From the NCBI GenBank assembly GCA_030650845.1, contig JAUSDC010000190.1, forward strand, positions 1 to 36,236: 36,236 nt of DNA, written 5' to 3'. Every line of letters starts with the position of its first letter. Within the stretch, counting starts at the first letter, position 1. The notes below the pieces were generated by a model. The model saw nothing but the letters and a program-made list of their open reading frames with translations, searched no databases and had not been told where the DNA came from. Position numbers and translations under genes: made by a program. The DNA is from Candidatus Methanoperedens sp. (GTDB lineage: Archaea; Halobacteriota; Methanosarcinia; Methanosarcinales; Methanoperedenaceae). Shown one piece after another: positions 20,672-35,796 of the stretch.

Positions 20672-20744
20672 AGTCCCGTAGGGTAGCGGTCAATCCTTCT
20701 GGCCTTTGGAGCCGGAGACGATGGTTCGAATCCGTCCGGGACTA
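20672..20744 (+). tRNA. tRNA-Gln (anticodon TTG)
   Basis: The cloverleaf folds by hand: acceptor AGTCCCG/CGGGACT (7 perfect pairs), anticodon stem CTGGC/GCCGG around loop CTTTGGA with anticodon TTG at 20706-20708, T arm GATGG-TTCGAAT-CCGTC, discriminator A. CCA is not encoded and no intron is seen. A T-rich stretch (20768-20785) follows and may end transcription. It marks the boundary between core genes and an accessory region. I found no second copy of its 3' end in the window. Confidence 0.95.
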
Positions 20745-21021
20745 TCTCAATTCTTGCACGAATCCTATTTTTTATTTATTATTTCTTATTAATTTAAGCT
20801 TATTTAAGAATCTTATTGCGTCTCCATTTTTCGCTTTAAGGACTTATACCATTTTTGGAGCCACCGAAAATGTTAAATCATTCTTATGTATTATAACACG
20901 TACGGATTATGAAACAAATAAAATCGCAGAGAACCTCGGATAAAAAAAGGTTAGATATTGGCTGTGGCGTGGAGAATAAGTGCATCTCAGCCGCCGAATA
21001 TAATATTGGGGTTGGATAAGA

Positions 21022-21186
21022 ATGGCGACAAAACATGAGCTTGAAACACTCCGTAATGACCCGCTCGTTCAGATGTATGCCAATGCGCCAGAGGAGATAT
21101 ATCAACTTGCAAAGAATACGAATCCGATGCTGAGAAAGGCAATTGAGTGGGCAAAGGCGATCGTTGCCACACAGGAAGTTCAATGA
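21022..21186 (+). CDS. 54-residue hypothetical protein
   Basis: The frame starts ATGGCGACAAAACATGAG and ends with TGA at 21184, encoding a mostly helical 54-residue protein (MATKHELETLRNDPLVQM ... IEWAKAIVATQEVQ). A weak G-rich ribosome site (GGGGTTGG) is upstream. It lies 41 bases before the winged-helix gene and may share its transcript. Composition and codon use look protein-like. No family is recognised. Confidence 0.6.
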   Translation: MATKHELETLRNDPLVQMYANAPEEIYQLAKNTNPMLRKAIEWAKAIVATQEVQ

Positions 21187-21227
21187 GAGGATCAGGATTT
21201 CCAGTCTAACTTGAGGGGATGTGAGAT

Positions 21228-21893
21228 ATGTCTGAAAATGATAACTGTCAGGAAAGGAAAGTTCCCAACATTACCAGCATTACTCCTACTCCTACTAATT
21301 TTATTTCAAATCCCTGCAAGTTCAGAGGTAAAACAATAGATATCCTCGGTATTCTTTCCAACAGCGGTGGAATGACTACGAGGGAAATTTCTGACCATAC
21401 CGGGATACCCATAAGAGAAGTTTGGGTATACTGTAGGAGAGGGGAGAAAAAAGGTATTTTTGAGAGAAAAGAACGATGGGGCTGGAAGGCTACGTCTTTT
21501 GGTTTTTTAATATTAAGTATTAATAATAATAATGTAAACACTTGTACAACACAAAGTAAACACAAAGTAAACACTTGTGAAACACATCTTTACACAGTTC
21601 CAAAAAAATCACATCAACTGAACCTGACAGTTTTCACAAATCGTTCTGACATCACTGAACCTGAACGAGTAGTAGTAGGAGTACTGGTGCAGCACTATGA
21701 GAGGACAGGGGAGAAGTATCGCTACTTCCATGACATCTATCATTTTTGCGATGAAACTGGTATAAGCGCGGTAGATGCTCCATCAGCGATAGCCAGGCTG
21801 AAAGAAGAAGGATGCATCTACACAAGAAAAGATGAATTCGGATGGAAGATCGGTCTGAAAGTAGATTTTGTTGAGAGGTTAAAATTCTGTTAA
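21228..21893 (+). CDS. Protein with two winged-helix-like domains
   Basis: 221 residues. The first HTH (about 38-85) contains ILGILSNSGGMTTREISDHTGIPIREVW and a wing ending in ERWGWKAT. The second (about 140-215) has ITEPERVVVGVLVQHYERTG and ends in DEFGWKIGL, echoing the first. A polar Asn/Thr/Lys linker joins them and is encoded over short tandem DNA repeats (21534-21578). A GAGGGGATGTGAG stretch precedes the ATG. It is likely a DNA-binding protein of the accessory region: a regulator or, less likely, a replication initiator. It converges with the gene ending at 21898. Confidence 0.75.
   Translation: MSENDNCQERKVPNITSITPTPTNFISNPCKFRGKTIDILGILSNSGGMTTREISDHTGIPIREVWVYCRRGEKKGIFERKERWGWKATSFGFLILSINNNNVNTCTTQSKHKVNTCETHLYTVPKKSHQLNLTVFTNRSDITEPERVVVGVLVQHYERTGEKYRYFHDIYHFCDETGISAVDAPSAIARLKEEGCIYTRKDEFGWKIGLKVDFVERLKFC
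21534..21578. repeat. Iteron-like GTAAACAC repeats inside the winged-helix gene
   Basis: GTAAACAC occurs at 21534, 21556 and 21567, spaced 22 and 11 bases. The 11-mer ACACAAAGTAA is tandem at 21549-21570, and GTAAACACTTGT flanks the array at both ends (21534-21545, 21567-21578). The spacing is near helical phase. The repeats encode only a polar linker, so they may serve as protein-binding DNA or simply reflect slippage. Confidence 0.6.
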
Positions 21894-21897
21894 GAAA

Positions 21898-22962
21898 TTA
21901 CCGTTCATATAAAAAATCGTTGCATACCTTCCATTTCGGGATCTTTATCTCATCCCATTCGATATAACGAAAAAACTTCTTTTTGTGCTCTTTGGAAGGT
22001 ATATAGTGAAAGTTATGCTCGCCGTAGCCATTTACAGTAAAATAAGTTTCTCCGGCAAGATAATCCAGGACATTTTTAAGATCATGCGCACTGAAAGGAA
22101 CATTTTCTTTAATAAGCCCTTTTGACATTTTAACAAATTCTGCGGCATATGCATAATTTGTTACTCTAAGATTGTAGCAAGGCTCATAGGAAGATGGAGG
22201 ATATAGGTGAATCCCATGCCTGTGCCAGCTGAACACTATTTCAAACGGGTGCCCGGCTGTTTTTCCACCGCTATCAAGCCAATCCTTAAATTCCTTACTA
22301 TCGTCCCAATCTTTGATGGAAAGCATTCCACCATCCCTTCCGTCAGCCCATTTTTTATACATTTCAAGAGGTGAAAGGCTCTCTGCTTTTTTCCCAAATG
22401 CTGCGACATAACAGATGCCTGCTGTTCTCAAATACTCGTTAAGCGAAATCCCCCTTATCTCTGGATTTCCTTCGACATGCCGTGCATAATCTTTCAGTAT
22501 CTTTACCCTGCTATTGTTTGAAAGTGCCTTATCCAGAACATATAATCCTTTGATCTTGCCAGTACGGATATCATAAGGTATGAGTTTTTGAAGAATCTTT
22601 TCATCGGCTTTGATCACCGGGATGAATCCAAGCGCTTCTGAAAAGATATTTTTATAGAACTCTTCGCTTTCTTTTTCGCCATTTTTAATGTGCAGATTTC
22701 TAAGAAGATGAAATTGTACGAAAAATTCTTTATTGTATTCATGAATGCCAAACGGCAGGGCTATTATTCTTCCTTCTCTTCTGACCGGCAGGTAAAAACC
22801 TTCCCATATCGTATCAGACTTATCCTGATAGCTCGGGAGGGCTTCATCTGATAGAGTTCTTGCCAGAGCATATATCTCGTTATTTTCTATCTCTTTCTCG
22901 CCGAAACCATGCAGGTAATACTCAATTTCGGCATAAATTATCTTAGGTTTAATTTTGTCCAA
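21898..22962 (-). CDS. Uncharacterised protein paired with a metallophosphoesterase
   Basis: 354 residues, soluble, no recognised domain. Visible features are a YAEIEYYLHGFGEKEI start, a long central region with EFFVQFHLLRNLH, and a conserved-looking FSWHRHGIHLYPPSSYEP segment (about 244-261) that might hold catalytic or metal-binding His. The start is TTG at 22962, about 10 bases after GGAGG; no upstream ATG is in frame. It begins 4 bases after the metallophosphoesterase stop, and the ribosome site lies inside that gene, so the two are a coupled pair. Function unknown. Confidence 0.75.
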   Translation of the reverse strand: MDKIKPKIIYAEIEYYLHGFGEKEIENNEIYALARTLSDEALPSYQDKSDTIWEGFYLPVRREGRIIALPFGIHEYNKEFFVQFHLLRNLHIKNGEKESEEFYKNIFSEALGFIPVIKADEKILQKLIPYDIRTGKIKGLYVLDKALSNNSRVKILKDYARHVEGNPEIRGISLNEYLRTAGICYVAAFGKKAESLSPLEMYKKWADGRDGGMLSIKDWDDSKEFKDWLDSGGKTAGHPFEIVFSWHRHGIHLYPPSSYEPCYNLRVTNYAYAAEFVKMSKGLIKENVPFSAHDLKNVLDYLAGETYFTVNGYGEHNFHYIPSKEHKKKFFRYIEWDEIKIPKWKVCNDFLYER

Positions 22963-22966
22963 GAAC

Positions 22967-23629
22967 TCAAAATCCTCCTGAAAAATGAAACTCTGTGATT
23001 ATTTGCTCAAACCGAAAGCTTTCTGTGTCAAGCTTGATCCATGAATTTTTCGGTTTGTCAAGGCATACGGACTTTATTCCTTTTTCGATTTCAAAAACGC
23101 CGAACTTGTGATGATGCCCGAAAAAATGGATTCCGGGTTTTGTTGCCCTGAGAATATCGGTGATTTCCTGCCTTCCAATATCCTCGCCATTACGATAATA
23201 AGGGGAAGGTGCCTCATGTGTAATTAATATGTCAATACTCCTGGTATTCAGGCACTTCTCAATCTCGTCTTTCACATAATGCCGTTTTCTACTTTTTGGC
23301 AATTCGGCTTTTTTGAAACCATAGTATGTCGGGGAATAGTTTCCTCCCATTCCAAGAATTCTCGTCTTGCCAAGCTGAACGGTTTCGGCATTTATCATAT
23401 GAATAAAGTTTGGAATCTTCAGAATCCCATTTTCCATCTTTTCGATTTCGTCCCAGTTCTCATGGTTTCCGCTTATCCAGTAAAGAGGCGCTGGCGGGGA
23501 GAGATATTCCATGGTTTTGTCTGCAAGGTCGCCTGTACAAATCCAGCATTTTATTTCAGAATTGTCTTTCATAATGCTTTCAATCGTTAAGAATTCCCCA
23601 TGCACATCTCCAATAACTCCGATCATCAT
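22967..23629 (-). CDS. Calcineurin-like metallophosphoesterase
   Basis: 220 residues with the full metal-binding set in order: GDVHGEF (7-13), TGDLADK, SGNHENWDE, a later THEAPSPYY and GHHHKFGVF. This is a small one-domain phosphoesterase whose substrate (nucleotide, nucleic acid or phosphoprotein) cannot be inferred. ATG 23629 is chosen, with a second ATG immediately after. It is co-translated with the unknown 354-residue protein and diverges from the regulator at 23750, with 120 bases between them. Confidence 0.9.
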   Translation of the reverse strand: MMIGVIGDVHGEFLTIESIMKDNSEIKCWICTGDLADKTMEYLSPPAPLYWISGNHENWDEIEKMENGILKIPNFIHMINAETVQLGKTRILGMGGNYSPTYYGFKKAELPKSRKRHYVKDEIEKCLNTRSIDILITHEAPSPYYRNGEDIGRQEITDILRATKPGIHFFGHHHKFGVFEIEKGIKSVCLDKPKNSWIKLDTESFRFEQIITEFHFSGGF

Positions 23630-23707
23630 GATAGCTGATATCCCTTCTTAAGCAAATATTTTATTGCGCTCGTTCCTTGCACATCGATAGGAACCCATAG
23701 AATCATA

Positions 23708-23738
23708 TTAGTAAACTACTTATATACATGTTTACTAA
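23708..23738. promoter_or_regulatory. Operator-like inverted repeat over the TATA box of the 23750 regulator
   Basis: TTAGTAAAC (23708-23716) and GTTTACTAA (23730-23738) are perfect 9-bp inverted partners 22 bases apart. The 13-base centre tacttatatacat carries the TATA element (about 23720-23726). A protein bound here would cover the promoter, as in an autorepressed regulator. The ATG lies 12 bases past the right arm, so the transcript is probably nearly leaderless. Confidence 0.75.
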
Positions 23739-23749
23739 AATGATACTAA

Positions 23750-24679
23750 ATGAATTTCAATATTTCAGCACTTGAACTTCGCATAATAAGTCTTCTTGAG
23801 CCGACACTCTCGATCAGGGAGCTGGCAGAAAAAACCGGCGTCACAAAAGGCTATATTTCCAGAACTGTAGCCTCTTTAAAGGATAAAGGATTTGTCGAAG
23901 TTTCGAAAAAAGGGATAACAAAGAAAGTGGCGTTATCCGGCAGCCTGCATGCCTCCAGGCTCAAATCCCTTCTCCAGAGGCGCAGCTATATGCCACTTGA
24001 TGAGCTTTTGCAGGGGTCAGGCACACAGATCCTGTCGGTCCTGATCTCCGGAAGTGCGGATTTTGCCCGTTTGCAGGAAGAGAGCGGGGTATCCCGGGCT
24101 ACTCTCTGGCGCTGGATCAGGAAATTCAAGGAACATGCAATGCTGCTGTCCAGAAATGATGAATATGAGCTTCCGCCGGACCTTAAAGATATAAAAGAAT
24201 TCCTGGAGAATTACTGTTCTTATTTTGCAGTATCCACACTGAAGGAGATATCGCCTGGAGCTAATTTCATTGCGGTAAAAGGTTTTGAATTTCTATTTTC
24301 TATTGAAGGCGAGATTGTGCATGAAAATGTGAAGTCAACGGGATTGACCTCGATATCTGAAGAAATCCCGCTCATGCTTTCCGAGAATTATTATTTCTAT
24401 TCTTCACGAACACTGACCAGAGAAGAAATCGCGGTACATGCCATTGTGGCTGACCCGCACGGCAGGAGGAACCTCACCTATGTTATACTCTATATCCTGA
24501 AGACCAGACTCAACACTGCTCTTTTTCTCAGGATCGCAAAAAGATACAGAGTGGAAGATACAGCCGTGAGCCTATTGAAACTGTTAAATACATGGGAGCG
24601 GCAACAAGCGCCGTACATGCCTGACCCGGCGTATGTCAGAGAAAAGCTGAAGGAGTACAAAATACAATGGCGAGAGTAA
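23750..24679 (+). CDS. Two-HTH regulator, probable antitoxin/autorepressor of a nucleotidyltransferase module
   Basis: 309 residues. Winged HTH 1 (about 7-65) contains LSIRELAEKTGVTKGYISRTVASL; HTH 2 (about 90-140) contains FARLQEESGVSRATLWRWIRKF. A C-terminal alpha/beta region (about 150-300) has no recognised fold. Archaeal proteins of this layout are often followed by an AbiEii-like nucleotidyltransferase and may act as antitoxins. Here the next frame begins by overlapping this stop codon but is truncated. The operator-like dyad over its own TATA box supports autoregulation. No frame damage is visible in this gene. Confidence 0.8.
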   Translation: MNFNISALELRIISLLEPTLSIRELAEKTGVTKGYISRTVASLKDKGFVEVSKKGITKKVALSGSLHASRLKSLLQRRSYMPLDELLQGSGTQILSVLISGSADFARLQEESGVSRATLWRWIRKFKEHAMLLSRNDEYELPPDLKDIKEFLENYCSYFAVSTLKEISPGANFIAVKGFEFLFSIEGEIVHENVKSTGLTSISEEIPLMLSENYYFYSSRTLTREEIAVHAIVADPHGRRNLTYVILYILKTRLNTALFLRIAKRYRVEDTAVSLLKLLNTWERQQAPYMPDPAYVREKLKEYKIQWRE

Positions 24680-24819
24680 GATTCGATGAAAAATACGTAT
24701 TTACCGAACTTGAAAAAGTCGGAAATGCTAAAGAAATAACAATAAATCAACATTATCCGGCGCCTGGGTATCGCCCCGGACGACTCTCTGATAAATGGCT
24801 GGGCATTCGCCCAGCGTAA
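24667..24819 (+). pseudogene. Truncated 5' remnant of a probable nucleotidyltransferase gene
   Basis: ATG 24667 overlaps the end of the regulator by 13 bases, a normal operon junction. The first about 26 codons (MARVRFDEKYVFTELEKVG ... EITI) look like the start of an AbiEii-type nucleotidyltransferase. The catalytic part that should follow (a GGxAM-type motif and Asp pair) is absent; the frame runs into unrelated sequence and stops at 24819. Another frame stays open across 24740-24860, so two fragments may have been joined by a deletion. Family assignment is by resemblance only. Confidence 0.55.
24798..24815. repeat. Perfect 7-bp stem hairpin
   Basis: GCTGGGC (24798-24804) and GCCCAGC (24809-24815) flank a 4-base ATTC loop. 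No T-run follows on either strand, so a terminator role is uncertain. It lies in the debris between the regulator and the convergent DUF1016 gene. Confidence 0.7.
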
Positions 24820-24828
24820 GGAATTGAT

Positions 24829-24854
24829 CAGTGGAATGGGATTCATATCCACTG
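24829..24854. repeat. Perfect 7-bp inverted repeat
   Basis: CAGTGGA (24829-24835) and TCCACTG (24848-24854) flank 12 bases. It is the second hairpin in this short convergent region, 10 bases past the end of the DUF1016 reading frame. Confidence 0.65.
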
Positions 24855-24863
24855 ACGAATTTA

Positions 24864-25972
24864 TTACTCCGCCTTCATCGTGCGCCCTTCCAGCATCCTG
24901 CGTGTATGCTCAAGCTCTGCAGCAAGTACTTTCTCATCCGGTAGAGCCATGCGGTATTCAGCTGCCAGAACTTTGTTTGGCAGCCCCTCAAGAGCATATC
25001 GGGCAACAGCCGCATCTTTCTCTGCACAGAGAATCAACCTACCGGCGGGTTCTCATCCTTATGTGTCCATTTCTCACGGGCATAATTGAGATAAAGGTGC
25101 ATCTGTCCAGCATCAGCATGAGTGAATTTGCCCACTTTAAGATCAATGATGACAAGACATCGCAGGATTCGGTGGAAGAAAATAAGATCGACACGGAACC
25201 ACTGGTCGCCGATGCGAAGGCGGCGCTGCCTGCCAATGAATGCAAAATCTCCACCCAGTTCAAGCAGGAATTTTTCCAAATGCTGGACGAGTGCTTCTTC
25301 CAGATCATTTTCTGAATATTCATCCTTAAGATTCAGGAACTCCAGGACGAACGGGTCCTTTATCTCTTCTTCCGGAGTTACAGCATCCTCCGGCTTTGCC
25401 TCTACTCCTTTCTTAAGCATTGCTGCCTTGTTTTCGGAAAGCAGCGTACGCTCGTAAAAGAGTGTCGAAACCTGTCTATCGAGCTGGCGCACCGACCATC
25501 CACCGCGCAGGGCTTCAGCTTCGTAAAAGGCGCGAGCATCAGGTTTATTCACAGAGAGCAAACGAACATAATGTGACCAGGGGAGAGAGAAACGCTTCAA
25601 TAAAATGTTCTCGACAATAGCGCCATTAGATTTCGCAGACACTGTCTGCGAAATTGGCCAGCCAACGTAAAAAAGCCGCATCTGTTCAAGATTACGTTCA
25701 GAGAATCCCCGCCCAAATCGCGCTTTCAGATCGACACTCAGCTTTTTCAACAGCTTCTTACCATATTCAGCGCGCTTCGCTCCAACCTGTTCAGACTCAA
25801 CAATTCGTCTCCCTATTTCCCAATATGTCGCTGTCATAATTGAATTGATCGTTCGCGCTGAGGCTCTACGCGCCGATTCGAGTAGATCAATAACATCAGA
25901 CAGGACGGTATCGTAACCAATAATAGAGCTGTCATCATTCATTATTGATATTTTCTTAGAGCTTTTGGCCAT
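24864..25972 (-). pseudogene. DUF1016/PDDEXK nuclease-family protein with a one-base frameshift
   Basis: The 312-residue frame (25034-25972) has the DUF1016 N-terminal region (TYWEIGRRIVESEQ, GRGFSERNLEQMRLFY) and the PDDEXK core (VRLLSVNKPDARAFYE, DFAFIGRQRRLRIGDQWFRVDLIFFHR, VIIDLKVGKFTHADAGQM). It stops at 25034 after DENPPVG. The family's usual tail continues in the next frame (LILCAEKDAAVARYALEG ... LEGRTMKAE) to a TAA at 24864-24866. One extra T in GGTTGATTC restores the full protein of about 369 residues. Such nucleases belong to accessory or defence gene sets. The core motifs are intact, so the break could be recent or a sequencing error. Confidence 0.85.
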
Positions 25973-26182
25973 CTTTCATCCTTCCATAAATCCTATCTCT
26001 TTATAGTTAAACACCGATAAAATCTCTTGCTAACTCAATCTTGTCAATACTTTGCCCCTTCTAGAATCATCGCTCATATCGCATTCTCTTTGCCCCGTAA
26101 ATGAGAATTGAGTGAAGCATTCTCTCAGGTTGGATATGATCAAAAACTTCACCAACCCTCCACTAACGCTGGATGAAACCTT

Positions 26183-26740
26183 CTATACAAACGCTTTTTT
26201 CTGTGTTAATTGCCTCATTTCGTCAACTGAAGGAGTTCTATAATGCTCCTGTATTGTGGCGATCTTATCCCCTGTAAGTTTCGATATGGCTTCGTCACTC
26301 CATCCAGCCTCATGAGCAAATTTGATACAAGTCGCCCGCAAAGCATGTATCGGTCTTTCAGGGATATCTGCAACTCTGCACCAATGGTTAAAATGCCGGT
26401 ACGCGGTCCTGCCAACATAATCGAACAAGTATCTTCGTTTCTTCCGTTCGGATTTATCCAGCGTATTATAGAATTTATGAATAAGAGATACTATTTCGTC
26501 CGGAAGATCTACAGTCTTATTACGAGATTTCTTTGATTCATAAAAAAGCATCGTCCTGTCTTTCAGGTTAATGTTGTCACACTCAAGGTTACACAGATCT
26601 TCCCTCCGAAGGCCTGTAGCAATCCCTAACCTGATCATGAGCTCGTCCTGGAGGTCCGTAATGACTTTAACGAGCTTATCGTATTCTTCCCTTGTGAGAG
26701 CCTTTTCACCTGTTGTATATCGGTCTGATTGAAGTTTCAT
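26183..26740 (-). CDS. Tyrosine recombinase, catalytic domain only
   Basis: 185 residues matching the catalytic part of phage-type integrases: first Arg in GIATGLRREDLCNLE, Lys in YESKKSRNKTVDLP, HALRATCIKFAHEAG in place of HxLRHT, and the tyrosine in EHYRTPS near residue 168. The usual N-terminal core-binding domain is missing, and no upstream frame supplies it. It could be an active short recombinase or a truncated remnant. The start has AGGA 5 bases upstream and is overlapped by a 10-bp-arm inverted repeat. It marks the tRNA-Gln-proximal region as mobile in origin. Confidence 0.85.
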   Translation of the reverse strand: MKLQSDRYTTGEKALTREEYDKLVKVITDLQDELMIRLGIATGLRREDLCNLECDNINLKDRTMLFYESKKSRNKTVDLPDEIVSLIHKFYNTLDKSERKKRRYLFDYVGRTAYRHFNHWCRVADIPERPIHALRATCIKFAHEAGWSDEAISKLTGDKIATIQEHYRTPSVDEMRQLTQKKAFV

Positions 26741-26771
26741 TTTGTCCTACTTTGTATCTATTAGGACAAAA
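26740..26771. promoter_or_regulatory. 10-bp inverted repeat at the recombinase start
   Basis: TTTTGTCCTA (26740-26749) and TAGGACAAAA (26762-26771) are perfect partners around 12 bases. The left arm ends in the first base of the recombinase ATG. It may be an autoregulatory operator, or a recombination core-like site with paired arms bound by the recombinase. Confidence 0.65.
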
Positions 26772-26960
26772 AGCTATTGAATTGATGTAAAAACAGACGA
26801 AAATGATCCTGAAATGTCCTTTAATAGAGAGAGTCGGACAGGATTCACGATGACATGGCTTTGCATGAGGCTGGAACTTAACCATGACAATGCCGGGCAT
26901 GGGTTCGAAGAATGGTAGTGCTGATTGAATCTAATGAAAGAATTGAAATAGTTAAGTTGC

Positions 26961-27293
26961 ATGAAGATTAATGCAATAATGAAATGGTTTAATGATATTC
27001 ATAATCGGCAAATTCGATTGTCATCTGAGCGGAAGGATCATATTGAATCAGACCATCCGGAAATGTCCGGACAGATTGATAAAATACAGAACACCCTTGC
27101 CAATCCCGATGTTATCGTTAAATCAAGAACAGATCCAGATGTTGAGCTATTTTATCAGCATTATGACACCACACCAGTCAATGAGAAGTATTTATGTGTT
27201 GTAGTTAAAGTATTAGTAAGTGATTTGTTTATTATCACTGCATATTTCACAGACACGATTAAAAAAGGTATTATATTATGGAAAAAGAAATAA
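26961..27293 (+). CDS. PBECR-like nuclease-fold protein, candidate toxin
   Basis: 110 residues with the pattern of small PBECR/RelE-like nucleases: RKDHIESDHPEM, a central IQNTLANPDVIVKSRTDPDVELFY and a C-terminal ITAYFTDTIKKGIILW. An in-frame ATG at 26979 (MKWFNDIHNR) may be the true start; neither has a strong ribosome site. It overlaps the DUF2283 gene by 16 bases. This pairing is common in prokaryotes and looks like a toxin-antitoxin arrangement. Activity is not established from sequence. Confidence 0.75.
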   Translation: MKINAIMKWFNDIHNRQIRLSSERKDHIESDHPEMSGQIDKIQNTLANPDVIVKSRTDPDVELFYQHYDTTPVNEKYLCVVVKVLVSDLFIITAYFTDTIKKGIILWKKK

Positions 27294-27496
27294 AAATATG
27301 GTATGACAAAGAGGGTGATTACCTTGAAGTCCTCTTTGAGAAAAAGGCAGGATATTTCAAGGAAACAGAAAACGATGCTGTGATGGAAAAAGTTGATACA
27401 AAGGGAAATGTTATTGGTTTTTCTATTTTAAAAGTGAGCGCATTAACTGAAAGGAAACCACTTTCGGTGAGTCTTAAAAAACTCGTTGTCGCTTGA
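27278..27496 (+). CDS. DUF2283 protein, candidate antitoxin partner
   Basis: 72 residues beginning with the typical DUF2283 signature IWYDKEGDYLEVLF, followed by a small beta-rich core (GNVIGFSILKVSAL). Its start lies within the end of the PBECR-like gene, indicating coupled translation. DUF2283 proteins frequently accompany RelE/PBECR-like genes, so an antitoxin role is plausible but inferred. A strong hairpin at 27577-27606 follows. Confidence 0.85.
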   Translation: MEKEIKIWYDKEGDYLEVLFEKKAGYFKETENDAVMEKVDTKGNVIGFSILKVSALTERKPLSVSLKKLVVA

Positions 27497-27576
27497 TAGT
27501 GAGTAACTTACCATTTGTTAAAATGGCTGGTTTTTTGGTCAAAATTGCTTGTTTTGCCATAGGAGATCAATACTTT

Positions 27577-27606
27577 ACTTACCATTTCAGATATAAAATG
27601 GTAAGT
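27577..27606 (+). terminator. 11-bp hairpin after the PBECR/DUF2283 pair
   Basis: ACTTACCATTT (27577-27587) and AAATGGTAAGT (27596-27606) pair perfectly around 8 bases. An extra copy of ACTTACCATTT lies at 27506-27516 with its own CCATTT-gtta-AAATGG hairpin. A short T-run (27613-27616) follows. It may be a transcription end or the first unit of the hairpin-rich region. Confidence 0.55.
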
Positions 27607-27758
27607 ACAATACTTTTACCACACCCATGTATTGTTAGTCTTCGATCCTGTTGGTGCTCAGAAAGTCGCTCTGAGCGTGCCGCTGCTCACGCTTGAAGTT
27701 GTTCATCAACAAGTTATTCAGGGTCTCTTCTTTATAGAGTAAAAATTATATCCCTGTA

Positions 27759-27786
27759 ATAATAAGGGGCGCTGCCCCCTTATTAT
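27759..27786. repeat. 11-bp perfect hairpin
   Basis: ATAATAAGGGG (27759-27769) pairs with CCCCTTATTAT (27776-27786) around loop cgctgc. No T-run follows on either strand. Confidence 0.75.
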
Positions 27787-27922
27787 CACGAATACAATCT
27801 CTACTCACTTTCCTTCAACCACTCCTGAAATTATGCTATCTATCTTAAGAATCATTCATTAAACCACGACGACGACTTGAACGGCGCGCCCTCCGGGGCG
27901 TGGTTGCCCGGGATGAGCTTAC

Positions 27923-27998
27923 GGCGAATAACCGCATCCTTCGTTCGCTTCGAGCGCTCGCTCACTCAGGCACGCCTCTGGGCTTGCGGTAATTCGCC
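27923..27998. repeat. 14-bp inverted repeat, 13/14 matched
   Basis: GGCGAATAACCGCA (27923-27936) and TGCGGTAATTCGCC (27985-27998) pair with one mismatch. The 48 bases between contain the palindrome GAGCGCTC. Confidence 0.7.
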
Positions 27999-28007
27999 TG
28001 CTGCATG

Positions 28008-28040
28008 GGCGGTAGTCGTCGCTATGCTCCGACAACCGCC
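28008..28040. repeat. 11-bp hairpin, 10/11 matched
   Basis: GGCGGTAGTCG (28008-28018) pairs with CGACAACCGCC (28030-28040) around an 11-base loop, 9 bases after the preceding hairpin. The two could stack in one RNA or single-stranded DNA fold. Confidence 0.7.
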
Positions 28041-28138
28041 GGTATGGGAAAAGCATACAGATCTTCAGGTTTAAAGTTGTTCACTGAACATGGGCGCGCA
28101 TGGCTAACCCATCGAAGAAGCCTGAGTCAATAAGGAAC

Positions 28139-28205
28139 GTGGGGGCTTCGCAAGTCAGAGCCCGGCGAACCCTACGGGCTGCCCCTGCCGACCTCTGACC
28201 CCCAC
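28139..28205. repeat. Bulged double stem with internal hairpin, candidate structured RNA
   Basis: GTGGGG (28139-28144) pairs with CCCCAC (28200-28205), and GTCAGAG (28154-28160) pairs with CTCTGAC (28193-28199), leaving a 9-base bulge on one side. Inside, AGCCCG (28159-28164) can pair with CGGGCT (28175-28180), competing for two bases. An alternative 7-bp pairing, GGCTGCC (28177-28183) with GGCAGCC (28215-28221), exists. The strand of any RNA is unknown. Confidence 0.5.
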
Positions 28206-28316
28206 AACACGGACGGCAGCCTTGTTTGTTTGTATGCATATATTCAAGAGATCAAATTGTAAATGTAAAAATAAACTCATATCCTACAGCGGTCTATTCT
28301 TCAATCACGGCGCCGT

Positions 28317-28352
28317 ACACCAGGCGCACCGGACAACGAGTGCGCCAGGTGT
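28317..28352. repeat. 13-position hairpin with one A-A mismatch
   Basis: ACACC-A-GGCGCAC (28317-28329) pairs with GTGCGCC-A-GGTGT (28340-28352) around a 10-base loop; 12 of 13 positions pair. The symmetrical single A-A mismatch is the sort of detail seen in functional RNA or protein-binding hairpins. Confidence 0.7.
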
Positions 28353-28524
28353 TCGGGGGGCTGGGCGATAACCCGCCGGGGCGAGCGGGTAATCGCGGTT
28401 CTTGTGTAATCAACAAAGAAGATGAACATTGATAATTGTAAGGTGAGTTCCAGCATTATTAGACGTTGAAGTTGCTGCCGTAGCTTGTTGCTCTCTTACG
28501 CTCAAGCGCCGCTGAGGCTGGGTA

Positions 28525-28680
28525 CGGGGATATCCCCGAACCTCTTACGCGCTTTTTTTCTCTCCCAGAAAAAAAGCTTGGCAAAAAAAGAGGGGATAAC
28601 TTCGCACGGGGCGGCGAAGTAATCAACTTTGTCATTTCACAAAGTTGACAAAAGAAACTTCTTTGAGTGCGGCAAAGAAG
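28525..28680. repeat. Run of five perfect palindromes/hairpins
   Basis: In order: the 14-bp palindrome CGGGGATATCCCCG (28525-28538); CTTTTTTTCT/AGAAAAAAAG (28552-28576, 5-base loop); ACTTCGC/GCGAAGT (28599-28620, 8-base loop); TCAACTTTGT/ACAAAGTTGA (28623-28648, 6-base loop); CTTCTTTG/CAAAGAAG (28658-28680, 7-base loop). All arms are perfect. Five in 156 bases is far beyond what ordinary intergenic DNA shows. Confidence 0.8.
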
Positions 28681-28765
28681 CAAACCGCGTGACGACGATT
28701 TGTGATTGGGTGTGATGTGGGGGGAATACTCCACACTGCAATCTAATTTTCATTATGCAGCGCCT

Positions 28766-28800
28766 GAATACTTTCACACCGCTTGCGTTTTTTATATATA
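28766..28800 (+). promoter_or_regulatory. Promoter of the ArdC-like operon with shared 18-bp motif
   Basis: GAATACTTTCACACCGCT (28766-28783) is followed by a TATA element ttatatata (28792-28800). The same 18-mer, with one change, precedes the PolB2 operon at 31494-31511. Its position just upstream of the TATA box fits an activator or upstream-binding repressor site. The transcript would start near 28825. Confidence 0.6.
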
Positions 28801-28828
28801 GTATGCCTGCGTATAGTGATTTAAGGAA

Positions 28829-28878
28829 AATGAGCAAGAACCCCCGCGGTGTTTGAGCACCCGGAGGCGCGGCTCATT
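28829..28878 (+). promoter_or_regulatory. Structured leader before the ArdC-like operon
   Basis: AATGAGC (28829-28835) pairs with GCTCATT (28872-28878), enclosing GGTG-tttgag-CACC (28848-28861). It would lie at the start of the mRNA, 8 bases before the GGAGG ribosome site. It may control translation or be the last member of the hairpin series. Confidence 0.5.
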
Positions 28879-28900
28879 CCTGTCTTGGAGGAATGAACAT

Positions 28901-29089
28901 ATGATAGATGTAGGCGAAATAAATAAGGGTATCGATGTCGAAAATCTGAACAAATTGCTGCATGAAAGAGCAGCAAACCCGCCGCAGTTTAACCCGTTCA
29001 CAGCGTCAGGGAATCAGGCATGGGCGGAATGGTGCGAAGGGTGCAGGGAGATCGAAAGGCAGCTCGAGGCTGCAGGGGTGGCGCTATGA
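28901..29089 (+). CDS. 62-residue hypothetical protein, first gene of the ArdC-like operon
   Basis: ATG 28901 follows GGAGG by about 9 bases and gives MIDVGEINKGIDVENLNKLL onward. The C-terminal half (PFTASGNQAWAEWCEGCREIERQLEAAG) is helical with a CxxC. Its TGA overlaps the ATG of the ArdC-like gene (ATGA), so the two are coupled. No family is recognised; small proteins beside ArdC homologues are often plasmid or phage accessory factors. Confidence 0.7.
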   Translation: MIDVGEINKGIDVENLNKLLHERAANPPQFNPFTASGNQAWAEWCEGCREIERQLEAAGVAL

Positions 29090-29946
29090 GCAATCAGGTT
29101 TACGATATTATAACCGCGCAGATAATTGAGCAACTGAACGCTGGGGTAATCCCCTGGCATCAATCCTATGTTGGAGGCATGCCTCAGAACGGGATCAGCA
29201 AGAAGCCATATAACGGTATCAATGTCTTTTTGTTGTCTGTCCGCGGTTTTGCAAATCCCTTCTGGTTCACATATAAACAGGCTCAGGAAGCTGGGGGAAG
29301 TGTCAGGAAAGATGAGAAGTCCACAAAGGTAATATTCTGGAAGAAGTTCACCCCGGCTCATAAGGACGATGGCAGGCAGCCCGGTGAAGTATCGGAAGAT
29401 GAACTTAAAGACCATCTGGTAATGCGTTATTACAGCGTATTTAATTTCGAGCAGTGCGAAGGGCTCAGCGCGGATAAATACGGCATCAAGACCGGTACCT
29501 TCAATCCTATTAAGGCAGCCGAAGTCATCGTTAAGGGATATAACGGCGCGCCGACAGTGGTTCACAACGAACAGCGCGCATATTATGCAATTGAAAAAGA
29601 CTTCGTGAACATGCCGAAGCCTGAGACATTTGTCAAGCCTGAATTTTACTATAAGACACTGTTCCACGAGTTCACCCATTCAACCGGCGCAGCGCACAGG
29701 CTCAACAGGAAGCTCACAGGACATCAGGCAGGCAGCCAGCAGGATTACAGCAAGGAGGAGCTTATTGCGGAAATGGGCGCATCCTTCTTATCAGGGCGCG
29801 CCGGTATCTTCGATGCTCCACAACTGGAGCAGGCAGCGGCATATATCCAGAGCTGGATCAAGGTACTCAAGAACGATAGCAAGATGGTGATCCAGGCAGC
29901 GAGTGCAGCGCAGAAGGCAGCCGATTACATAACTGGAGGGGTTTAA
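29086..29946 (+). CDS. ArdC-like antirestriction protein (ssDNA-binding domain plus zincin metallopeptidase)
   Basis: 286 residues. The N-terminal domain (about 1-120) has the ArdC/DUF1738 pattern: QIIEQLNAGVIPWHQSY, YNGINVFLLSVRGFANPFWF, GGSVRKDEKSTKVIFWKKF. The C-terminal zincin-like peptidase has HEFTH (194-198) and the glutamate in EELIAEMGA (about 225-233), the HExxH-plus-E metal set. ATG 29086 overlaps the upstream stop; longer forms have no support. ArdC-type proteins on plasmids and ICEs protect incoming DNA from restriction, which fits a transferred element. The next small frame follows immediately after TAA. Confidence 0.92.
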   Translation: MSNQVYDIITAQIIEQLNAGVIPWHQSYVGGMPQNGISKKPYNGINVFLLSVRGFANPFWFTYKQAQEAGGSVRKDEKSTKVIFWKKFTPAHKDDGRQPGEVSEDELKDHLVMRYYSVFNFEQCEGLSADKYGIKTGTFNPIKAAEVIVKGYNGAPTVVHNEQRAYYAIEKDFVNMPKPETFVKPEFYYKTLFHEFTHSTGAAHRLNRKLTGHQAGSQQDYSKEELIAEMGASFLSGRAGIFDAPQLEQAAAYIQSWIKVLKNDSKMVIQAASAAQKAADYITGGV

Positions 29947-29947
29947 G

Positions 29948-30057
29948 ATGCCCCCCTTTTTGATGAAGATGTAAGGATCCATGACCGCGAGATCAGAGAG
30001 CTTAACAGGGAGCGGCGCGAGATAGAGCGCGAACGCCTGGAGGGGGACAATGAATAA
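29948..30057 (+). CDS. 36-residue charged protein interrupted at a C6 tract
   Basis: ATG 29948 has GGAGGGG 6 bases upstream but as written stops after eight codons. The adjacent frame, entered by slipping back one base in the CCCCCCTTTTT run, reads LFDEDVRIHDREIREL then an Arg/Glu-rich helix to TAA 30055-30057. The stop overlaps the next gene's start region, as expected for a real gene. Seven C instead of six would give a clean frame beginning MPPLFDED. Either a one-base deletion, a sequencing error, phase variation or programmed -1 frameshifting explains it. Confidence 0.55.
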
Positions 30058-30208
30058 ATCTTTCTCTGACAAATTAAAGGCAGGATGGAGCAGGGAGCAG
30101 CTTATGAAGTATTATTGTCTTTCAGAAGAGCGATACAACAAAACAATACAGTGCCTGGAAGATATACGGGAGGAAGGAAAAAAAGAAATAGCCCACTCAA
30201 AATTGTAA
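30050..30208 (+). CDS. 52-residue hypothetical protein
   Basis: ATG 30050 has GGAGGGGG 4 bases upstream and overlaps the end of the charged small gene. The product starts MNKSFSDKLKAGWSREQLMK and continues with CLSEERYNKTIQCLEDIREE, a helical pattern resembling a small helix-turn-helix. It is the last gene of the ArdC-like operon and converges with MC1, with one base between their stops. Confidence 0.65.
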   Translation: MNKSFSDKLKAGWSREQLMKYYCLSEERYNKTIQCLEDIREEGKKEIAHSKL

Positions 30209-30209
30209 T

Positions 30210-30533
30210 CTAAAGTTTCTTTAGCTTTTCGACTCCTGCTTTCTTTACGTTTGGCTTGTTGATCTTATCAGGCATCCATTTTGGTTTATTTTTCGGAGCG
30301 GAAACGAGTGCTCTCCATCCTTTAAATATATGGATTTTCTTGGTTCCTCTTTCCCTCAGTCTTATTTCAGCTGGATTTGATTTTGTTCCTTTGCTGCGGT
30401 TAGCGGCTTTTAATGCTGCCTGCCGTGGCTGGGTACCTGTGAATACTCCAGCTTCTTTTCCATTCTTCCCTCTTAGAACAAAACATCTTGTTCTTATTAC
30501 GCTCTTACTGCTCTTACTTTTTGTTTTCACCAT
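30210..30533 (-). CDS. MC1 chromatin protein
   Basis: 107 residues closely matching methanogen chromosomal protein MC1: RCFVLRGKNGKEAGVFTG, QPRQAALKAANRSKGTKSNP, IRLRERGTKKIHIFKGW, PKWMPDKINKP. MC1 binds and bends DNA and is typical of Methanosarcinales and haloarchaea. Compared with the roughly 93-residue Methanosarcina form it has an extra basic Lys/Ser N-terminus (MVKTKSKSSKSV). ATG 30533 is chosen; a TTG six codons earlier is possible. A 17-base dyad lies just upstream. Confidence 0.95.
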   Translation of the reverse strand: MVKTKSKSSKSVIRTRCFVLRGKNGKEAGVFTGTQPRQAALKAANRSKGTKSNPAEIRLRERGTKKIHIFKGWRALVSAPKNKPKWMPDKINKPNVKKAGVEKLKKL

Positions 30534-30546
30534 ATTTTCATACCCT

Positions 30547-30563
30547 GACAACGATTCGTTGTC
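30547..30563 (-). promoter_or_regulatory. 17-base dyad upstream of MC1
   Basis: GACAACG (30547-30553) and CGTTGTC (30557-30563) are perfect 7-bp partners around att. It lies 13 bases from the MC1 ATG and downstream of AT-rich TATA candidates (30565-30596), where a bound protein would block transcription. Confidence 0.55.
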
Positions 30564-30643
30564 TTATCATTATATCTACTATTATAATATATAAGTCTTA
30601 CTAATATACTATCGGCTGTGCACACTGATTTAAAAATATGCTG

Positions 30644-31493: not shown

Positions 31494-31511
31494 GAATACT
31501 TTCACATCGCT
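31494..31511 (+). promoter_or_regulatory. Shared 18-bp motif upstream of the PolB2 operon
   Basis: GAATACTTTCACATCGCT matches 28766-28783 at 17 of 18 positions. It is followed by agtttttaag (about 31517-31526), a possible weak TATA element, and then the RecA-like gene. It contains ACTTTC, which fits the ANTTTC hexamer reported in Sulfolobus DNA-damage-responsive promoters; a six-base match alone is weak. Confidence 0.6.
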
Positions 31512-31570
31512 CTCCAATAGTTTTTAAGATTGCCCGTCAAATCCAGTAATTCCCTCTGGATGTGAACAAT

Positions 31571-32272
31571 ATGTCTTACTGCCTCAGTCCCCGCACTCAT
31601 ACACCGCTGCTGCCCTGCACCGACCTTCAGGGCTTCAAGCCTTCATGCATAACAGTAGTCGAGGGTTCGTCCAGCCTTGTGCCAGATGTTCTGTTCCGAC
31701 TGTGCGTTTCTTCGGTCATATCCTCTGGCAGGGATGCAATGTTTGTGGACGGCGGGAACAGTTTTAATCCCTATGCCTTATCAAAGACTGCAAAGTCCTT
31801 CGGTGAAGAGCCCAGAAAAGTGCTATCCAGGATCCATGTTGCCCGTGCTTTTACCGAGTACCAGATGGATGCCCTGATACACGGATTACATGATGCTGTT
31901 GAGCAGTGGAATCCTGCCGTGCTGGCTATATCCTATCTACCCACCCTCTTTTCTGGCTCTGACGGCAGGAGACTGCTTGAACCGCTGGTTGAACACCTGA
32001 AACTTCTGACCGAATCTTCTGGAATCATTACAGCAATAACAAGTTTCGGAGGCTCGTGGGACGGGGACAGACTACTTGCATCCAGGGCTGACAGGGTTAT
32101 CCGTATCGAACAGCCCTCAAAGAAACTCATCAGAATAATCGATGACGGGTATGTCTTTGAATACATGCCTGTACAGCCTGGGCAGATGAGGTTCACTGAT
32201 TTTGAGGAATCTGAATCAGCAGGAGGTGACTTACCTGGGCAGAACAGTGCCTTCATTTCGTGTCCTGCTTGA
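31571..32272 (+). CDS. RecA/RadA-fold protein with degenerate P-loop
   Basis: About 233 residues. The segment MFVDGGNSFNPYALSKTAKSF then IHVARAFTEYQMDAL matches the region after the Walker A helix in RadA/RadB (DTENTFRPERI, IARAYNSxHQ), and AVLAISYLPTLF fits a Walker B strand. The P-loop position reads VVEGSSSLVPDV, without GK(T/S), so ATP binding is doubtful. ATG 31571 is chosen with GGATGTGA upstream; a GTG at 31562 is possible. It overlaps the small gene that links it to PolB2. Degenerate RecA-like proteins are partners of PolB2-type polymerases in archaea and, as ImuA, of DnaE2 in bacteria. Confidence 0.8.
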   Translation: MSYCLSPRTHTPLLPCTDLQGFKPSCITVVEGSSSLVPDVLFRLCVSSVISSGRDAMFVDGGNSFNPYALSKTAKSFGEEPRKVLSRIHVARAFTEYQMDALIHGLHDAVEQWNPAVLAISYLPTLFSGSDGRRLLEPLVEHLKLLTESSGIITAITSFGGSWDGDRLLASRADRVIRIEQPSKKLIRIIDDGYVFEYMPVQPGQMRFTDFEESESAGGDLPGQNSAFISCPA

Positions 32273-32531
32273 GGATATAATCGTAGAGCTTTCAGTATTC
32301 AGAAGGGCGCTGCGCGGCGAGGATAAGGCTGCCTTTGATAGCCTCATGAACAAGGCAAGGGAGCATGCATCATCCTGCACGGTTGCACCTGCACTTGACC
32401 CTATGGATGCTGTTTTCTTATCCATACTTGTGGAGCAGCAGAAAGAGCTTAACTCACTGCGGGAGGCTTTGAATGTTCCTGCTGGATATCAGGTACGATC
32501 CGGAAAAAAGCAAGATAACAAAATGGATTAA
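32226..32531 (+). CDS. Small helical protein between the RecA-like and PolB2 genes
   Basis: About 100 residues, largely helical: SFRVLLEDIIVELSVFRRAL, DKAAFDSLMNKAREHA, DPMDAVFLSILVEQQKELNSL. No known domain. It overlaps the RecA-like gene at its 5' end and PolB2 by 59 bases at its 3' end. The start is uncertain: AGGAGGTGA at 32221-32229 is an excellent ribosome site, but nearby candidates are GTG 32226 (inside it), CTG 32235 or GTG 32247. A third small helical gene is also part of the crenarchaeal dpo2 operon layout as I recall it. Confidence 0.75.
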   Translation: MTYLGRTVPSFRVLLEDIIVELSVFRRALRGEDKAAFDSLMNKAREHASSCTVAPALDPMDAVFLSILVEQQKELNSLREALNVPAGYQVRSGKKQDNKMD

Positions 32532-34626
32532 GACCGATAAAGGCTGCCAGCCGGTGCACGAGGTTTATTATCCGAAGATATACGTGGGAGGAAAACCCGA
32601 ACTTCTGCCTCAGATAGCCAGCCTGCCCGGAGTGAAAGATGCGTGCTTTGATGAGAAAAGTACCTGGCTTGGCAGAAGTCCTGAAAAAGTAATATCCGCT
32701 AAAGTAGAATCCATTTCGATTTACGATATTGCTTCGATGCTTGAGGCTAAAGGATGCAGCCTGTACAACATCGATCTTGATCCAGTCAGGCAGTATCTCA
32801 TCGAATACAATCTATTTCCCGCTGCAATACTCAAGGGAGATATTCTTGACGACAGCCAGTATGCCCTTGACTATGAGGTACCCGAACTTGTCAGCATGGA
32901 ATTATCGGTAATACCAGGCAGGTATAAAGGGATTATCACGATGGAGGACCCCATCGGCAGGATTGCTTTTGGTGATTGCGTGATTGAGGAAAGTTCTGAA
33001 GCGGAGATGATCAATAACCTTAACGTTGAGGTCGCTCATGCCGACCCTGACCTGATACTGACAGACAGGGGAGATAGTTTTGATCTGCCATATTTGCATC
33101 ACCGCGCAGCTTTACACGATATCGACCTTAGTCTTGGAAGGGAGAAGGATATCCTGCATGAAGGCGGAGGAAAGTCATATTTCAGCTACGGCAGGATACT
33201 CTACAAACCCAAGGGATACTTACTGGCAGGACGGCTGCATCTTGACAGGTCGTCCTTCACGTTCAGGGAAGGTGGGCTTCTTGGATTGATAGACCTTTCC
33301 CGCATAACAGGGATACCATTACAGGAGTTGTCACGCCTGAGTCCAGGCAGTGCAGTTACCGCATTGCAGGTCAATCAGGCTCTGCGTGATGGCGTGCTCG
33401 TCCCGTGGAAGCGCAACCTTGCAGAATACTGGAAGACTGCCGAGGAACTCCTCATAGCAGACAGGGGTGCTCTGGTGATAGAACCAAAAGTAGGACTGCA
33501 TGAGAATGCCTTTGAGGTGGATTTTGCATCCCTCTTTCCCAACATAATGGTGAATCATAACATCTCCCCAGAAACCGTGCTGTGCACCTGTTGTCCAGAC
33601 TCCCAGAAGCGTGTGCCTTTTACGCATTATAACATCTGCCAGCAGCATATCGGACTTATTCCAAGGGTGCTGAAACCGCTCATAGAGAGGCGGATGACGT
33701 ACAAGAAACGGATCATGTCCGAACCTGAGAGAGCAGAGGAGTATGAGATGAAGCAGAACGTGCTCAAATGGCTGTTGGTGACGAGTTTTGGTTACATGGG
33801 ATTCAACAAGGCACGCTTTGGAAGGATAGAGTGCCATGAATCCATAACTGCATACGGACGGGAGATACTGCTTCGCACGATAGAACTTGCAGACGGTATG
33901 GGTTTCGAGATACTGCACGGTATTGTTGACAGTCTCTGGGTGAAGGGACGAAATCCTGAGAAGCTTTGTGAAATCGTGACTAAGGATATAGGCATACCGC
34001 TTGAACTTAAAGGCGAATTCAGGTGGATTGTGTTCCTGCCCAACAAATCAAATGGAGTGGGTGCACTGAACCGATATTACGGTGTGATGATAAACGGTAA
34101 ACTGAAAGTGCGGGGAATAGAGACAAGAAGAAGTGATACGCCCACGCTCATAAGAAACTTGCAGGAAGCCATGCTCGGAAAACTTGCGGAGGCGAAAAAT
34201 GCTTCTGAGTTTTACATGAAGATACCCGAAGTCCTTGAGGTGCTGCGGGAATACACAAGGAAAGTGCTTGATAACGAATGTGCTCTTTCCGACCTGATAT
34301 TCAAGACACACGTTTCCAGAGGCTGTGATGAGTACAGGCAGTTCAATAATCAGATGGCTGCAGTGAAGCAACTGAAAGTTGAGGGGATAGAGACACTGGC
34401 AGGGCAGACCATTCACTACATAATAACAGATCATAAATCCAGAAATTACCAGAAACGGGTGATTATACCAGAACTTGCCGATGAGAGCACACAGTATGAC
34501 AGGGCGAAATACTATGAATACCTCTTGCGAGCTACCGAGAGTATGCTGTTGCCCTTCGGGTACACAGAGGAACGGCTGGACGGGATTATGAGGGGAAGGA
34601 TGCAGAGAAGCCTGTGCGGATACTGA
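32473..34626 (+). CDS. Divergent family-B DNA polymerase, PolB2/Dpo2 type
   Basis: 717 residues. Motif A is DFASLFPNI (350-358) with Asp350. A Cys cluster (CTCC near 371-374 and ICQQH near 388-392) precedes GLIPRVLKPLIERRMTYKK. Motif B is KWLLVTSFGYMG (from 432). Motif C reads HGIVDSLW (482-489): the usual DTD has become IVD, leaving only Asp486. The exonuclease domain is eroded: no DxE at the ExoI position (MELS near 142-145), and ExoII reads DRGDSFD. These traits fit archaeal PolB2, of which the Sulfolobus member (Dpo2) acts in error-prone damage tolerance. Start ATG 32473 has GGGAGG 8 bases upstream. Catalysis with the altered motif C is unproven here. Confidence 0.88.
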   Translation: MFLLDIRYDPEKSKITKWIKTDKGCQPVHEVYYPKIYVGGKPELLPQIASLPGVKDACFDEKSTWLGRSPEKVISAKVESISIYDIASMLEAKGCSLYNIDLDPVRQYLIEYNLFPAAILKGDILDDSQYALDYEVPELVSMELSVIPGRYKGIITMEDPIGRIAFGDCVIEESSEAEMINNLNVEVAHADPDLILTDRGDSFDLPYLHHRAALHDIDLSLGREKDILHEGGGKSYFSYGRILYKPKGYLLAGRLHLDRSSFTFREGGLLGLIDLSRITGIPLQELSRLSPGSAVTALQVNQALRDGVLVPWKRNLAEYWKTAEELLIADRGALVIEPKVGLHENAFEVDFASLFPNIMVNHNISPETVLCTCCPDSQKRVPFTHYNICQQHIGLIPRVLKPLIERRMTYKKRIMSEPERAEEYEMKQNVLKWLLVTSFGYMGFNKARFGRIECHESITAYGREILLRTIELADGMGFEILHGIVDSLWVKGRNPEKLCEIVTKDIGIPLELKGEFRWIVFLPNKSNGVGALNRYYGVMINGKLKVRGIETRRSDTPTLIRNLQEAMLGKLAEAKNASEFYMKIPEVLEVLREYTRKVLDNECALSDLIFKTHVSRGCDEYRQFNNQMAAVKQLKVEGIETLAGQTIHYIITDHKSRNYQKRVIIPELADESTQYDRAKYYEYLLRATESMLLPFGYTEERLDGIMRGRMQRSLCGY

Positions 34627-35098: not shown

Positions 35099-35229
35099 AT
35101 AATAGTTTCACCCCGCTATCTAATTGCTTTTATTCTTGCAAATGTATTACCCATGAACTGAGGCAAAATTATGAACCCTCGAATTAACTCCCGCAATCTT
35201 CCGAAGTGCGTTGAGCAGTTACATCCTAC

Positions 35230-35796
35230 CTGATATTTGATACCGAAACAACCGGTTTACCCAAAAATTGGAAAGCTCCTGTAACAGATCTGAATAATTG
35301 GCCTCGATTGGTTCAAATAGCGTGGCTACAATGCGATAATTCGGGAGAAATACTATCAAGTTCCAATTATATCGTTAAACCCCGGGACTTCATTATTCCT
35401 GAACATGCGGTAAATATCCATGGAATTTCAACCGAAATGGCAAAAAATGAAGGAGTTGCCTTAAATATAGTTCTTAACAATTTTTCAACCGCGATCGGCC
35501 GGTCAAGTTTCCTGATAGGTCACAATATGGCTTTTGATGAAAAAGTCGTTGGAGCTGAACTTTTAAGAGAAAAGATCGAAAGTAGATTATTTTCAATTCC
35601 AAAAATCTGCACGATGGAAAGGTCAACTGATTATTGTAAGATCCCTGGATCGTATGGTTATAAATGGCCGTCATTATCAGAATTATATTTCAAATTATTC
35701 GATAAAGATTTTGAGGAGGCTCATGATGCGGTTGTTGATGTGAGAGCGTGTGCTGATTGTTTTTTTAGATTAAAAAAGGAAGGAATATTAAAATAA
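35230..35796 (+). CDS. DnaQ-like DEDDh 3'-5' exonuclease, start codon missing
   Basis: The frame reads LIFDTETTGLP (ExoI, DTE), then LVQIAWLQ, HNMAFDEKVVGAEL (ExoII) and AHDAVVDVRACA (ExoIII with His and Asp), a complete DEDDh exonuclease set over about 188 residues. No ATG, GTG or TTG lies before the ExoI motif in this frame; a TGA precedes it by a few codons. An ATG at 35171 opens another frame that stops at 35233, right at ExoI. A one-base indel there would join them. Using the internal TTG (35308) would delete ExoI. The gene may be frameshifted or use a rare start. Confidence 0.75.
   Translation: MIFDTETTGLPKNWKAPVTDLNNWPRLVQIAWLQCDNSGEILSSSNYIVKPRDFIIPEHAVNIHGISTEMAKNEGVALNIVLNNFSTAIGRSSFLIGHNMAFDEKVVGAELLREKIESRLFSIPKICTMERSTDYCKIPGSYGYKWPSLSELYFKLFDKDFEEAHDAVVDVRACADCFFRLKKEGILK

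Follow-up and report, generated by a model that had tools for sequence, protein, structure and literature searches.

Organization of the operon

The window analyzed here is the complete 36,236-nt contig JAUSDC010000190.1 (C212 in our numbering, in which G denotes genomes, C contigs and L loci) of a 3.4-Mb metagenome-assembled genome (MAG; assembly GCA_030650845.1, labelled G000) of Candidatus Methanoperedens sp. The genome is 97.6% complete with 4.85% contamination and, because it is a MAG, copy numbers within it may mix strains. Toward the end of the window three genes, iRadA, PPB2 and PolB2, follow each other in this order on the same strand (Table 1). They overlap, as noted in a first-pass annotation made from the letters alone; the overlaps measure 38 nt (iRadA/PPB2) and 59 nt (PPB2/PolB2), and the arrangement is not a chance one. 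That annotation likened the cassette to an archaeal mutasome. Its sequence features make it a genuine iRadA-PPB2-PolB2 operon and one more example of a system that has already been published (PMC4104785; PMC11791011). The published operons share with ours the gene order, the overlapping genes on one strand, an inactivated RadA, a PPB2 with a GRT arm and a PolB2 with a substituted DxD motif and a decayed exonuclease.

The product of iRadA has the RAD51/RadA fold, and lacks the N-terminal domain and the ATPase residues, as is typical of the mutasome subunit. The Pfam Rad51 match is weak (E=2.8e-5), but the AlphaFold model (pLDDT 79.5, pTM 0.77) has RAD51/RadA/DMC1-type structures as its 50 best matches in the PDB, with probability 1.00. 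Where the RadA of the same genome reads GEFGSGKT (Walker A) and VDSLTAHF (Walker B), iRadA reads VVEGSSSLVP and SYLPTLF. Thus, neither the Walker A lysine nor the Walker B aspartate is retained. The earlier description of a RecA-fold protein without the Walker A lysine is borne out, and a first gene unrelated to that fold can be set aside. The better start is the ATG at 31571, with GGATGTG before it, rather than the GTG at 31562. The C-terminal tail is disordered in the model. Among 13 homologues, its Q205 and F211 are invariant and F208 nearly so, and QMRFTDF resembles the QxxLxxFF form of a PCNA-interacting peptide (PIP) by eye. In some published mutasome members the tail of iRadA or of PolB2 has a motif for clamp binding (PMC11791011), and by analogy the tail may bind PCNA.

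The conserved start codon of PPB2 is a CTG at 32235; no ATG, GTG or TTG is found there. Relatives start at the same codon, mostly with ATG and otherwise with GTG, TTG or ACG, behind a near-identical Shine-Dalgarno sequence, and initiation at CTG is therefore very likely. The ACG start, in G016 (L015/L097), is also non-standard and in the same position. The GRT that follows is invariant in 16 homologues, and the modelled monomer has three helices (pLDDT 70, moderate confidence). The small helical protein of the first-pass annotation thus has the three helices and the MGRT arm of the mutasome subunit (PMC11791011), with CTG as initiator and its start corrected to 32235.

The polymerase matches Pfam DNA_pol_B (E=1.2e-35) and is assigned to the B family by NCBIfam as well. 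The aspartate of the D(K/R) motif (D258, followed by R in the window) is invariant, whereas the first DxD aspartate is replaced; of the exonuclease, both the motif I residues and the asparagine of motif II are lost. This is the pattern expected of PolB2 (PMC11791011), and the PolB2 type, eroded exonuclease and IVD reading of motif C proposed earlier hold in the motif alignment. The 16 PolB2-type sequences in our tree, which include two from haloarchaeal plasmids and one from a Leptospira phage and none of Sulfolobus PolB1 or PolB2, form a clade with 100/100 support apart from canonical archaeal PolB. Placement inside this clade is unsure because the tree is long-branched and without Sulfolobus references. 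A grouping with PolB1/PolB3 or viral polymerases would have spoken against the first-pass annotation; the polymerase does not group with canonical archaeal PolB, and one viral sequence, that of the Leptospira phage, lies within the PolB2 clade.

With isoleucine in place of the first motif C aspartate, threonine in place of the motif B asparagine and no exonuclease motifs, PolB2 could be catalytically dead and only structural. We consider this very improbable: the metal-binding D350 and D486, already noted as retained in the first-pass annotation, are invariant in 13 homologues, and Sulfolobus Dpo2, which has an IID motif, is active and mutagenic (cited in PMC11791011).

PolB2-type polymerases also occur on Leptospira phages (L291). 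A viral origin of the cassette was rejected, as no relative was found in IMG/VR contigs and the only phage matches are distant, all of them to Leptospira phages.

The describers of the PolB2 mutasome compare it to Pol V, and the first-pass annotation drew the parallel with ImuA-ImuB-DnaE2. Pol V (UmuC-UmuD'-RecA) and ImuA-ImuB-DnaE2 do share the logic of a polymerase with a RecA-type partner and a small helper. The likeness is one of analogy only, since the polymerase families and the small subunit differ: the polymerase of the window belongs to the B family, and hence is neither a Y-family UmuC/ImuB nor a C-family DnaE2.

A promoter box conserved upstream of the cassettes

The region singled out in the first-pass annotation begins at 31494 and takes in a promoter box (31498-31511). 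When the upstream DNA of 12 Methanoperedens cassettes is aligned, one conserved block, A(C/G)TTTCACNCCGCT, stands out from otherwise diverged sequence. The box, ASTTTCACNCCGCT, lies 8-14 nt upstream of the TATA element in all 12 cassettes, with 12-14 of 14 positions matching in each. When 350-nt stretches are drawn at random from the window, about 1% reach 12, most of them through the 14/14 matches at its two other boxes.

The box was derived from the PolB2 promoters first and tested elsewhere afterwards. Counts rest on pattern searches, with the pattern read backwards as the control, and genes were assigned to sites via long ORFs just downstream. With the TATA spacing required, the box occurs 9 times in its own genome (control, 0) and 80 times in 34 Methanoperedenaceae genomes (control, 7; sums made by hand). 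The core TTTCACNCCGCT without the TATA requirement gives 24 sites in the own genome against 4 for the control. Across the order, ACTTTCACNCCGCT is present in 151 of 186 genomes and its control in 15. Enrichment is weaker outside the order, with matches in 128 of 393 genomes of a phylum sample.

Genes behind the box

In the own genome the box precedes RadA, RPA, Mre11 and four DinD/Bro-N genes. It also stands before the two PolB2 operons, before two of the solo PPB2 cassettes (see below) and before an integrase-like gene, an IS200 TnpA and the ArdC region. DinD-like genes and Mre11 are the largest target groups in the genomes of the family, Methanoperedenaceae. Other families of the order carry the box at RecQ, MCM, RPA, RadA, UvrA, UvrC, Hef, rSAM_link_UDG, a dGTPase and another PolB2 cassette, and further genomes of the phylum, many of them apparently haloarchaeal, at RPA, Mre11, Hef, Top6B and DinB. 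Eight target representatives were confirmed against NCBIfam, with separate checks of Mre11 and RadA; Hef, Top6B, DinB and RmuC-like targets were named by eye. When the sites of three wider samples were compared with the representatives by BLAST, 13/30, 19/30 and 15/30 of them belonged to the listed families, the others being unassigned, chance matches or short transcripts. To our reading, a promoter box shared by the cassettes and repair genes is new here.

In several genomes the box is followed by a short transcript-like element that has a T-run and a conserved hairpin, GCCC-TACACGATTCT-GGGC (L216-L219, L222-L224, L227, L228, L246, L258). A compensatory change (CG to UA) is seen in one pair. 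An Rfam search of box-driven transcripts gave no match there, the sole match being sRNA41 elsewhere in L236. The element may be a small RNA under damage control. Just 3' of the box in L231 and L243 lies a tiny conserved ORF, MDDFFTELVNRARYYEQFEEFVRAHK, similar in size to damage-induced small proteins, and a related start occurs in L158 and near G000:C5:4833 (L176). The exonuclease at 35308 in the window is not claimed as a genuine box-driven gene, because a truncated mini-iRadA ORF (see below) lies between it and the box.

Relation to published damage motifs

In Halobacterium, TTTCACTTTCA lies upstream of the TATA element of the UV-B-induced radA1, top6B, vng17 and vng280, and it is also found at radA of other haloarchaea and of Methanospirillum (PMC2556686). 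Our box overlaps this motif in sequence, likewise precedes the TATA element and shares radA and top6B as targets. It differs in being longer (to CCGCT), in marking many more repair genes and in extending across the Methanosarcinales, PolB2 operons included. The full 11-mer occurs at some box sites (radA in L225 and L226, Mre11 in L105); the site in the window reads GAATACTTTCA and agrees with it in the 3' part only. Full-text searching for this 11-mer returned no relevant match beyond PMC2556686 in a corpus that leaves out most subscription literature, where an earlier description is possible.

The box also contains ANTTTC (as ACTTTC or AGTTTC) upstream of the TATA element, the damage element bound by Orc1-2 in Sulfolobus (PMC9738581), although a hexamer by itself is too short to be more than weak evidence. 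Common to the Sulfolobus case and ours are a PolB2 operon and ANTTTC, and a Cdc6/Orc1 paralogue bears the box here. In contrast to ANTTTC, the box is 14 nt long and located on core repair genes. The paralogue concerned is a Methanoperedens Cdc6 (including the copy on G000:C104), and in 6/6 orthologues the distance from the box to the downstream start is 105-108 nt. As a general regulator it was rejected: close orthologues were found in 6 genomes only and the box is order-wide, so it is better regarded as a regulon member than as a proven regulator.

These links to Orc1/Cdc6, together with the box at MCM promoters, transposase genes and unassigned sites, would also suit a general strong-promoter or Orc1/Cdc6 origin-type element with no particular tie to damage. 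We think this improbable given the near-fixed distance between box and TATA, the strong preference, seen in several families, for genes of recombination and repair, the limit of about two dozen copies per genome, the overlap with the Halobacterium UV-B motif and the score of at most 11/14 at the 24 other Cdc6-type genes checked, none of which has the box. Several main Orc1/Cdc6 genes (L265, L271, L273, L279, L281) have the box core in reverse complement, GTGAAAGTAAT, just 5' of their start codons, possibly as an autoregulatory site.

Solo PPB2 cassettes and a PPB2-less operon

A second PolB2 operon of the genome (C195; L006, 8437-11189) lacks PPB2, its iRadA overlapping PolB2 directly; the nearest relative of this polymerase in the tree, from G025, does have PPB2. 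Conversely, we identified four PPB2 genes without PolB2 (C156, C175, C183 and C248; L039-L042), each behind an ORF of 58 aa that we call mini-iRadA. It ends in PFGQTRLNEF or a similar sequence, which resembles the tail of iRadA (PPGQMRFTDF). The full box is present on two of the four. The ratio of nonsynonymous to synonymous substitution rates (dN/dS) of the solo PPB2 genes is 0.02-0.11 in pairs with computable dS, several of them near saturation. Thus, the genes are not pseudogenes and are maintained by purifying selection. Similar short ORFs lie under the box in G030 and G014, and the window itself holds a box with a truncated mini-iRadA copy (35104-35232).

On the simplest reading, the mini-cassettes would supply or tune PPB2 in trans, and the QxxLxxF tail kept by mini-iRadA could compete for PCNA or recruit it. 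The published PolB2 mutasome differs from ours in the CTG start of the window PPB2, in the PPB2-less and PolB2-less versions present in one genome and in its regulation, as a repair-gene box does not appear in the accessible parts of the published descriptions. The mini-iRadA and PPB2 cassettes, the PolB2 operon without PPB2 and the CTG start are new here.

Genomic context

The window also holds a likely integrated element (20672-30600), with a tRNA-Gln gene, a DUF1016/YhcG nuclease, an integrase, ArdC and MC1. Coordinates of all features are given in Table 1.

Table 1. Features of the operon and its surroundings (positions in the window).
Feature	Position	Strand	Remarks
iRadA	31562..32272	+	GTG 31562 or preferred ATG 31571; RAD51/RadA fold without N-terminal domain
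iRadA tail PGQMRFTDF	32177..32203	+	PIP-like (QxxFxxF); from alignment
PPB2 (arCOG07300)	32235..32531	+	CTG start, GRT N-terminal arm, three helices
PPB2 Shine-Dalgarno GGAGGTGA	32222..32229	+	Same place in nearly all relatives
PolB2	32473..34626	+	717 aa
PolB2 motif A, D350	33520-33522	+	
PolB2 motif C, I484-V485-D486	33922-33930	+	Reads HGIVDSLW
Promoter box ACTTTCACATCGCT	31498..31511	+	13/14 match to ASTTTCACNCCGCT
TATA-like element TTTTTAAG	31520..31527	+	8 nt downstream of box; aligned with TATA of relatives
Second box copy AGTTTCACCCCGCT	35104..35117	+	Followed by TATA
Truncated mini-iRadA ORF (MNPRINSRNLPKCVEQLHPT*)	35164..35232	+	Remnant of mini-iRadA and PPB2 cassette
Third box copy ACTTTCACACCGCT	28770..28783	+	Upstream of small ORF and ArdC-type gene
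tRNA-Gln	20672		Within likely integrated element
DUF1016/YhcG nuclease	25034-25972		PADLOC PDC-S02
Integrase	26183-26740		Within likely integrated element
ArdC-type gene	29020-29946		Within likely integrated element
MC1	30210-30551		Within likely integrated element

On two haloarchaeal plasmids (L289, L290), iRadA and PPB2 adjoin a PolB2-type polymerase, with the same gene order, GRT arm and IVD motif. A Cdc6 gene adjoins the cassette of the Haloprofundus plasmid.

Proposed function and regulation

We predict that the cassette is a PolB2 mutasome operon that extends primers past lesions and is most likely co-induced with an SOS-like repair regulon of Halobacteriota, a reading in which we have good confidence. 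The box common to RadA, RPA, Mre11 and others suggests that these repair genes and the operon are most likely turned on together. It also gives local, indirect support to damage-inducible control, for which the first-pass annotation had only the Sulfolobus precedent. Following DNA damage, a regulator would act at the box, RadA, RPA and Mre11 would rise and the mutasome would be made. PolB2, held in place by iRadA and by the arm of PPB2 and possibly seated on PCNA, would then extend ends that are mismatched or blocked by lesions; iRadA would serve as a dead RadA gripping PolB2, with a tail like those that bind the clamp, and PPB2 would act as a trimer. Translesion synthesis, damage induction, assembly and the geometry of the complex are proposed by analogy with relatives. 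Sulfolobus Dpo2 is damage-inducible and required for targeted mutagenesis, and the modelled complex consists of PolB2:iRadA:3xPPB2, with PolB2 binding iRadA as RAD51 subunits bind each other (PMC11791011).

Several observations weigh against this prediction. About half of the box sites in the wider samples could not be matched to any of the listed genes, and the box is absent from the two haloarchaeal plasmid cassettes checked (best score, 11/14). The cassette is patchy, occurring in about half of the Methanoperedens genomes and in several copies per genome, and an integrase and ArdC lie near it, so that it may serve a mobile element. It would then be a module for replication, repair or anti-defence of that element and not for damage tolerance of the host, consistent also with the DUF1016 nuclease encoded in that half of the window and with the homologues of PolB2 carried by plasmids of haloarchaea and by Leptospira phages. 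We regard this as unlikely, if less so than the other alternatives weighed above, since the promoter box is common to RadA, RPA and Mre11, the second PolB2 copy on C195 adjoins ordinary metabolic genes and the PolB2 of Sulfolobus serves its host in damage tolerance (PMC11791011).

Beyond the co-induced mutasome operon, we lean slightly toward a broader proposal, that Methanosarcinales and haloarchaea share an SOS-like regulon marked by ASTTTCACNCCGCT and controlled through a putative, probably activating regulator. Its members would be RadA, Mre11, RPA, Hef, RecQ, UvrA, UvrC, MCM, DinD-like genes, short transcripts and the PolB2 mutasome. In Methanoperedens the mini-cassettes, of which at least two have this box, would supply or tune PPB2 in trans, also for the PolB2 operon without a PPB2 of its own.

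The cassette alone is ordinary; it is the proposed box regulon and the mini-cassettes that deserve specialist attention. Through the mini-iRadA and PPB2 cassettes, a mutasome subunit would be supplied or regulated in a new way. In the literature that we found, a general damage regulon and its regulator are not described for Halobacteriota. With the box in hand, a euryarchaeal SOS response and its control become directly testable in tractable Methanosarcina and haloarchaea.

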